The position numbers were made by a program, and so were the translations under genes. 64,000 bases of DNA from Hyalella azteca (Eukaryota; Arthropoda; Malacostraca; Amphipoda; Hyalellidae), in NCBI RefSeq assembly GCF_000764305.2, contig NW_025941694.1, positions 124,874-188,873 on the forward strand, read 5' to 3'. Under the pieces are notes generated by a model. That model searched no databases. It had not been told where the DNA came from and worked only from the letters and a program-made list of their open reading frames with translations. Positions 5,061 to 60,549 of the stretch are shown in pieces. Within the stretch, counting starts at the first letter, position 1; every line of letters starts with the position of its first letter.

Positions 5061-5169
5061 TCAGGTGGTGTAGGGGGCGCTATGGGACAGCGTCAGGGAG
5101 AGCATCTGTGACGAGACGTTGAACTCTTCAGGGGAGCGCTCGGTGGAGGGCTCAGCGATACGCGCCGCT
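5061..5169 (-). CDS. Tao: Tao terminal coding exon 17
   Basis: After acceptor CTGTTCAG the frame gives [20 protein letters not shown] and ends SHSAPYTT then TGA. Phase fits exon 16. The Ser-rich SLTLSHS motif resembles the SMISLAHS tail of fly Tao, which supports the call, although the match is short. Confidence 0.75.

Positions 5170-60549: not shown

Follow-up and report, generated by a model that had tools for sequence, protein, structure and literature searches.

Local tandem duplication has repeatedly lengthened the introns of two genes, Tao and HPS3, in a stretch of 64,000 nucleotides of Hyalella azteca DNA (hereafter the window). The duplicated units lie close to exons, their ends are scattered at the DNA level, and at 18 splice junctions they have copied the exon edge, the splice site and adjoining intron sequence into the intron, leaving decoy splice sites there. 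As the best explanation we lean towards ordinary local tandem duplication acted on by a selective filter and combined with an exon-proximal bias.

Both genes lie on the minus strand, with a gap of about 12.8 kb between them (Table 1). The top protein match for the N-terminal 374 residues of the Tao product, among the best 120 of 6979 matches, is from the isopod Idotea baltica (84% identity, 96% query coverage), and the HPS3 product matches the Pfam HPS3_N profile with an e-value of 6e-25 and HPS3_C with 3e-5, the latter under its own cut-off. Within HPS3, whose exons are denoted H2, H4 and so on, the acceptor of H16 is ambiguous by 10 nt (46477 versus 46487); position 46477 is required for the open frame and 46487 was used in distance calculations. 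The final counts derive from the completed HPS3 model, which includes exons H13 and H15; models preceding their addition gave 17 spanning arrays and placed 31 of 39 arrays within 50 bp of a junction. These two genes in one window, chosen since the pattern had been spotted there, constitute the entire sample.

A self-comparison of the window for direct-repeat pairs no more than 1.5 kb apart with a score of at least 34 recovered 189 local pairs, and the same search after each of three local shuffles of the window yielded 0 to 2; that is, adjacent direct copies of local units are present above chance. Pairs were merged into arrays when the gap between copies was at most 200 bp, those with a wider gap being omitted from the array counts, and 39 merged arrays touch the 37 introns. 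The density outside both genes is far lower, with 3 arrays per 21.3 kb versus 39 per 34 kb of intron. We term an array spanning when its duplicated unit has a junction inside it with at least 3 bp on either side. By this definition 18 of the 39 arrays span a splice junction, comprising ten donors (Tao exons 3, 6, 11, 12 and 15; H2, H4, H15, H18 and H20) and eight acceptors (Tao exons 3, 7, 10, 12, 15 and 16; H20 and H22). Counting also arrays that merely come close, 35 of the 74 splice sites have an array on them or within 50 bp, including 15/37 donors and 20/37 acceptors. The exonic part of the spanning copies ranges from 4 to 86 bp (about 7 bp at H15), and six arrays that share just 4-8 exonic bp (the H2, H15 and H18 donors, Tao donor 15, Tao acceptor 10 and the H22 acceptor) are marginal, making poor cases of exon copies.

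Table 1. Gene models, junction-spanning arrays and dispersed-element copies in the window (positions are those of the window)
Feature	Position	Strand	Description
Tao (TAOK, TAO kinase) gene	5061..26238	-	17 exons joined, one open frame; runs 26238 to 5061
HPS3 gene	39017..60549	-	22 exons joined, one 1778-aa frame; runs 60549 to 39017
Tao exon 3 donor array	24377..24661	-	65-bp unit including 23 exonic bp
Tao exon 3 acceptor	24795..24982	-	96-bp unit x 2, copies abut exactly; 40 exonic bp
Tao exon 6 donor array	21796..22369	-	~150-bp unit, 86 exonic bp; three decaying copies, GT retained
Tao exon 7 acceptor copy	21148..21362	-	35 exonic bp
Tao exon 10 acceptor array	12034..12270	-	three decoy acceptors; 5 exonic bp
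Tao exon 11 donor copy and array	10895..11336	-	12 exonic bp
Tao exon 12 acceptor array	9969..10358	-	125-bp unit; 33 exonic bp
Tao exon 12 donor array	9525..9908	-	45 exonic bp in copy; more weak copies at 9266-9310 and 9154-9199
Tao exon 15 acceptor array	7298..7780	-	units ~140-150 bp; at most 23 exonic bp
Tao exon 15 donor array	7042..7173	-	46-bp unit; 6 exonic bp
Tao exon 16 acceptor copy	6358..6726	-	17 exonic bp
HPS3 exon 2 (H2) donor array	58733..58900	-	just 4 exonic bp
HPS3 exon 4 (H4) donor array	56330..56465	-	40-bp unit x 3.4; decoy donors identical to the true one
HPS3 H15 donor duplication	47373..47577	-	7 exonic bp
HPS3 H18 donor minisatellite	43289..44419	-	18-bp unit x 61, begins 4 bp within exon; occupies 98% of intron
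HPS3 H20 donor duplication	42085..42399	-	154-bp unit; 31 exonic bp
HPS3 H20 acceptor copy	42452..42583	-	22 exonic bp; weak
HPS3 H22 acceptor array	40723..40897	-	58-bp unit x 3, 98% identical; 8 exonic bp
Dispersed-element copies, including	3915-4104, 19595-19785, 34688-34857, 37345-37530, 40855-41040, 46482-46663, 50110-50290, 55435-55598

The units vary by site, ruling out a single repeat family; the exception is several HPS3 acceptor-proximal arrays that contain pieces of a dispersed element. Two arrays are 98-99% identical (that at the H22 acceptor and one at 59743-59862), as might arise from an error of assembly, but in most of the remaining arrays the best pairs diverge by 7-32%, a difference not produced by misassembly, and we regard this explanation as scarcely credible.

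An earlier note on this DNA had listed 19 junctions in Tao and HPS3 as being copied into adjacent introns. The phenomenon itself is real, in that 18 junctions across the two genes lie inside duplicated units, and 17 of the 19 prove to be spanning if, as we infer, exons 14, 19 and 21 of HPS3 in that note are H15, H20 and H22 (the 14th, 18th and 20th in the chain). The two others fall away: Tao donor 8 has one weak 31-nt copy situated 444 nt off, and at the HPS3 exon 4 acceptor the repeat (56556-56659) begins 2 bp outside the exon, whose edge is at 56554. The H18 donor is an additional spanning case absent from that list. The many different units and unit sizes bear out the note's view of a recurrent process as opposed to one event, and the duplications do, as it held, include true splice sites and produce decoys. 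Its contention that copies decay away from the exon applies to Tao donor 6 and Tao acceptors 10 and 12, and weakly to Tao donor 15 and Tao acceptor 15; no such decay is seen at Tao donor 3 (90, 74 and 82 being the scores going outward), at Tao donor 12 or at the H22 acceptor, at which both copies have common differences from the true site. Taken as a whole, its interpretation is partly supported.

The arrays hug exons. Of the 39, 33 touch a junction or come to within 50 bp of one, with three others having their nearest edge at 51-400 bp and the last three beyond 400 bp, although the 51-400 bp zone amounts to 20.3 kb of intron. Moving the arrays randomly within their own introns yields an expectation of 10.2 within 50 bp, or 13.9 if an exon overlap of 45 bp is permitted, and under either null the observed 33 was reached in none of 100000 simulations. 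A circular shift of the exon map is a more demanding null, averaging 19.6 and never exceeding 27. By both kinds of null, arrays are thus nearer to exons than random intron positions would be, in agreement with the earlier note. The stricter first grouping, which joined copies no more than 100 bp apart, placed 29 of 41 arrays within 50 bp. We rejected a detection bias arising from conserved exon halves: when exons were masked before detection (in the model without H13 and H15), 29/37 arrays still lay within 50 bp, versus 9.5 expected, and 15/37 were spanning.

TRF, used as an independent detector with a period of at least 10, found 44 arrays and gave a weaker exon proximity than the self-comparison arrays. 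Within 50 bp were 26/44 of all TRF arrays, versus 17.6 by circular shift (p = 0.003) and 9.3 within introns; 20/33 of those with a score of at least 100, versus 15.0 by circular shift (p = 0.03); and 18/28 of those with a period of at least 30 and a score of at least 100, versus 12.5 by circular shift (p = 0.015). For the youngest arrays, those with at least 90% match, the count of 7/15 exceeds the within-intron expectation of 2.2 (p = 0.002) and shows no significant exon proximity against the circular-shift expectation of 5.5 (p = 0.30). Exon proximity is accordingly supported for the full set of arrays and uncertain for the youngest. At 12631-13238 a 36-bp unit is repeated 14.5 times and the repeat similarity begins 11 bp from the acceptor of Tao exon 9, and two arrays in the 6-kb intron 7 of Tao (17172-17308 and 17589-17881) are distant from all modelled exons.

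Is it the junction itself that attracts duplications, or the flank of the exon? The earlier note took exon-intron boundaries to be hot spots of breakage or slippage, which could arise, for example, from chromatin, base-composition steps or transcription-coupled conflicts. The 18 spanning arrays compare with 7.2 expected when units of unchanged length may land at any survivable intron position (p = 7e-5) and with 9.5 if placement is limited to the 300 bp beside junctions (p = 0.0015), as such a hot spot predicts; limited to 150 bp, the expectation rises to 13.6 and there is no clear excess (p = 0.08), all of these expectations being raised by an overestimated unit length for short-unit minisatellites. 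The stricter grouping likewise gives no excess of spanning arrays, 14/41 versus 14.7 under random placement permitted to swallow exons. Similarly, 25/39 arrays lie within 15 bp of a junction, versus 3.9-9.3 under random placement or 17.1 by circular shift (p = 0.001), and both donors and acceptors are affected, but the TRF arrays within 15 bp show no excess over circular shifts in any of the four subsets (observed/expected 16/14.2, 13/12.6, 11/10.4 and 5/4.2).

The coverage by duplicated bases, computed before the two HPS3 exons were added, has no peak at the junction across Tao and HPS3. On the exon side it is 2% at bases 41-80 and 19% at bases 1-5, exon interiors past 80 bp having 8%, which comes from coding repeats. 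On the intron side it is 24-28% at bases 1-20 and 31-49% at bases 21-200; between 400 and 1000 bp it is noisy at 14-40% (40% at 601-1000 on the donor side, 32% at 401-600 on the acceptor side), past 1 kb it is 6-14%, and between the genes it is 4%. The hot zone is the exon flank, and the junction sits on its shoulder. The junction is not clearly special in itself, and this part of the earlier note's claim is not supported; we treat the breakage hot spot as a hypothesis, possible but doubtful.

Another way to obtain exon-hugging arrays is differential survival: duplications might form everywhere, with deletions and transposon insertions subsequently erasing the distant ones and exon-adjacent DNA being shielded by the lethality of deletions that reach an exon. 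The paucity of arrays outside the two genes would fit this, as would the many mobile-element copies in the introns and the intergenic DNA. However, high-identity arrays are also exon-near in the masked analysis (14/18 at an identity of at least 85%, with 5.0 expected, and 7/9 at 88% or more, with 1.2 expected), as are the TRF arrays of at least 90% match by the within-intron null, although these are not above circular shift. Moreover, mobile-element pieces in three HPS3 arrays (near the H6, H21 and H22 acceptors) suggest that those arrays are younger than the insertion. We consider survival as the main cause rather unlikely.

Alternatively, the introns could have been short when the duplications occurred, every duplication being then of necessity close to a junction, and transposons could have filled the middle afterwards. 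Some introns (H18-H19, H23-H24 and H9-H10) do collapse to 133-174 bp, and internal repeats are described as abundant in the neointrons of Daphnia in the excerpt of that report (PMC4202315). Yet most array-bearing introns collapse only to about the length of array-free ones: the median of the 27 array-bearing introns falls from 793 to 532 bp once arrays are reduced to one unit, versus 564 bp for the 10 array-free introns. High-identity arrays span junctions too (Tao donor 3, the H4 donor and the H22 acceptor, at 90, 93 and 98% identity). This scenario appears to us improbable. The arrays add to intron length, as the earlier note had also asserted: of the 33884 bp of intron, 7975 (24%) belong to extra copies.

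The copies themselves retain some features of splice sites. Leaving aside those of H18, GT is intact in 18/19 aligned donor copies, versus 13.1 expected from intron identity, and AG in 15/19 acceptor copies versus 14.5 expected (11/12 without the AT-rich H10 array). Conservation of the decoy dinucleotides is suggested for donors and not for acceptors, and since copies within an array share ancestry, the counts are not independent. In the models before H13 and H15, 16 decoy donors scored 3.8-9.6, as compared to a median of 6.9 for true donors and 0.6 for all GT. These values would be expected were the copies functional, as alternative exons or as back-up splice sites under selection. Nonetheless, all 21 Tao copies scored (11 donor and 10 acceptor) add at least one stop codon if used, and one of the 10 acceptor copies has lost its AG. 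Hence a role for the Tao copies as mutually exclusive or extra exons was rejected, and no coding role was seen among the 21. By this stop test, which covers Tao copies alone, the copies look like decoys and not alternative exons; that they are functional is very improbable. Intron gain by tandem duplication was likewise rejected, since the frames of Tao and HPS3 are intact without any copy and the scored Tao copies add stops.

To account for these observations, we favor a scheme in which tandem duplication of DNA, acting locally and irrespective of sequence on units of about 18-160 bp, would hit Tao and HPS3 recurrently. It would likely proceed through staggered breaks that are filled in and joined, or through replication slippage, and pairs could grow into arrays by further slippage. 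The exon-side ends of the copies lie 4-86 bp inside the exon and not at the splice site, indicating that they were not set by splicing or RNA; for the same reason copying guided by cDNA or splicing was rejected. Join geometry could be assessed in 23 of the 39 arrays, namely those whose best pairs overlap by less than 30 bp; nine of these abut within -1 to +5 bp, consistent with near-blunt joining as in fill-in and end joining of staggered breaks, and 14 have larger gaps or overlaps.

Selection would then sort the products, such that mostly multiples of three persist in exons and anything may persist in introns. When a duplication covers a single junction, neither the original exon end nor its splice site is displaced, and the change should be tolerated; the copy would simply drop into the intron, and exon edges would in this manner shed decoy splice sites as introns lengthen. 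Among TRF rows inside exons the period is divisible by 3 in 8/10 (in each of two exons, a pair of overlapping rows stems from a single array), as expected if exonic duplications occur and the in-frame ones mostly survive. In-frame tandem repeats with periods of 12, 21 and 24 bp are found within HPS3 exons at 39332-39491, 46294-46379 and 57045-57090.

By itself, general duplication with selection accounts for exon-edge copies, and not for the scarcity of arrays farther into the intron. Were the filter purely neutral, one would not expect 3 arrays in the 20.3 kb at 51-400 bp as opposed to 33 in the first 50 bp, nor the sparseness of intergenic arrays relative to intronic ones. The concentration within about 50 bp calls for an extra ingredient, which may be a bias of mutation towards the flanks of exons or a higher survival of arrays there.

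The window also contains a dispersed MITE-like element, about 175 bp long, whose ends are inverted repeats and which, as judged by eye, has TA flanks in several copies; it occurs in 31 places, many of them fragments. One of its ends lies 3-25 nt upstream of five HPS3 acceptors (50094, 46487, 44718, 41513 and 40730), the distance at H16 becoming 15 nt with the alternative acceptor. With 18 intronic sense-strand element ends and a chance of 0.027 each, five acceptor-near ends have a p of 9e-5, some of the 18 being tandem copies of one end. At H16 and H18 the pyrimidine-rich end of the element immediately precedes the acceptor AG. Two donors have an element end close by as well, that of Tao 4 at 13 nt and that of H5 at 15 nt. 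We examined whether the element is an introner and rejected this: the five introns have one element end close to the acceptor, and the 60 nt nearest the donor yielded no such end. Its contribution is introner-like at one end only. Elsewhere, two arrays of a similar 14-bp repeat (32912-33053 and 33306-33432) flank 33061-33301, itself a dispersed repeat probably paired with 33483-33727, an arrangement that resembles the insertion of an element into a single array.

Several precedents, described here from excerpts of the respective reports, show that the earlier note overstated in calling the phenomenon not known before, as both a boundary-crossing tandem duplication in potato and staggered-break repeats in Daphnia introns have been published. 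In Daphnia pulex, internal direct repeats of 4-17 bp were found in 55/90 neointrons and read as the result of repeated staggered double-strand breaks that lengthen introns (PMC4202315). The likeness is one of local direct repeats within crustacean introns; units in Tao and HPS3 differ in reaching about 160 bp, in being often multi-copy, in including an exon edge and splice site in 18 cases and in hugging exons. The Daphnia repeats sit in newly gained introns; those of Tao and HPS3 may be old or new. According to a second Daphnia report, as excerpted, introns contain far fewer repeats with units above 8 bp than other regions do (PMC3152781), the opposite of what we see in this window.

In a potato RdRp gene, one tandem duplication across an intron-exon boundary created a new intron (PMC4974935). 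As at the acceptors described above, the unit there consisted of the intron end, the 3' splice site and the exon start; unlike that single intron-creating event, the present cases number 18 junctions, spread over two genes, and introns that were already there have taken up the copies. Intron gain via tandem duplication of an exon segment containing AGGT, as outlined in PMC4974935 and PMC3443670, has in common with our findings a tandem duplication that interacts with splice sites, but in Tao and HPS3 no new intron results and existing ones grow. Direct repeats of 4-30 bp at or near intron-exon borders have been described from many taxa (PMC11782384); according to the excerpt these are short pairs, found by comparing one border of an intron with the other and taken as insertion scars, from which the arrays studied here differ. 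Fill-in at 3'-overhang breaks is a known path to small tandem duplications by near-blunt joining, demonstrated with Cas9-induced breaks, the excerpt of that report drawing no link with exons (PMC8355091). Among the matches listed (titles and the starts of abstracts, with subscription journals mostly outside the scope), we found no report of a systematic duplication of existing splice junctions into introns.

A bolder generalization would be that exons act as nucleation points for tandem duplication in this lineage, their edges setting off local duplications time and again; these would amplify the splice site together with its flanks into the intron, drive intron length outward from the boundary and confront splicing with arrays of decoys. 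We offer this tentatively and doubt that it holds. If the pattern should extend genome-wide, it would represent a route for intron lengthening that is independent of transposons, about a quarter of the intron DNA here being extra local copies. It would likewise furnish a natural library of duplicated splice sites for studying how the spliceosome ignores strong decoys, and a testable map of where small tandem duplications originate relative to exons.
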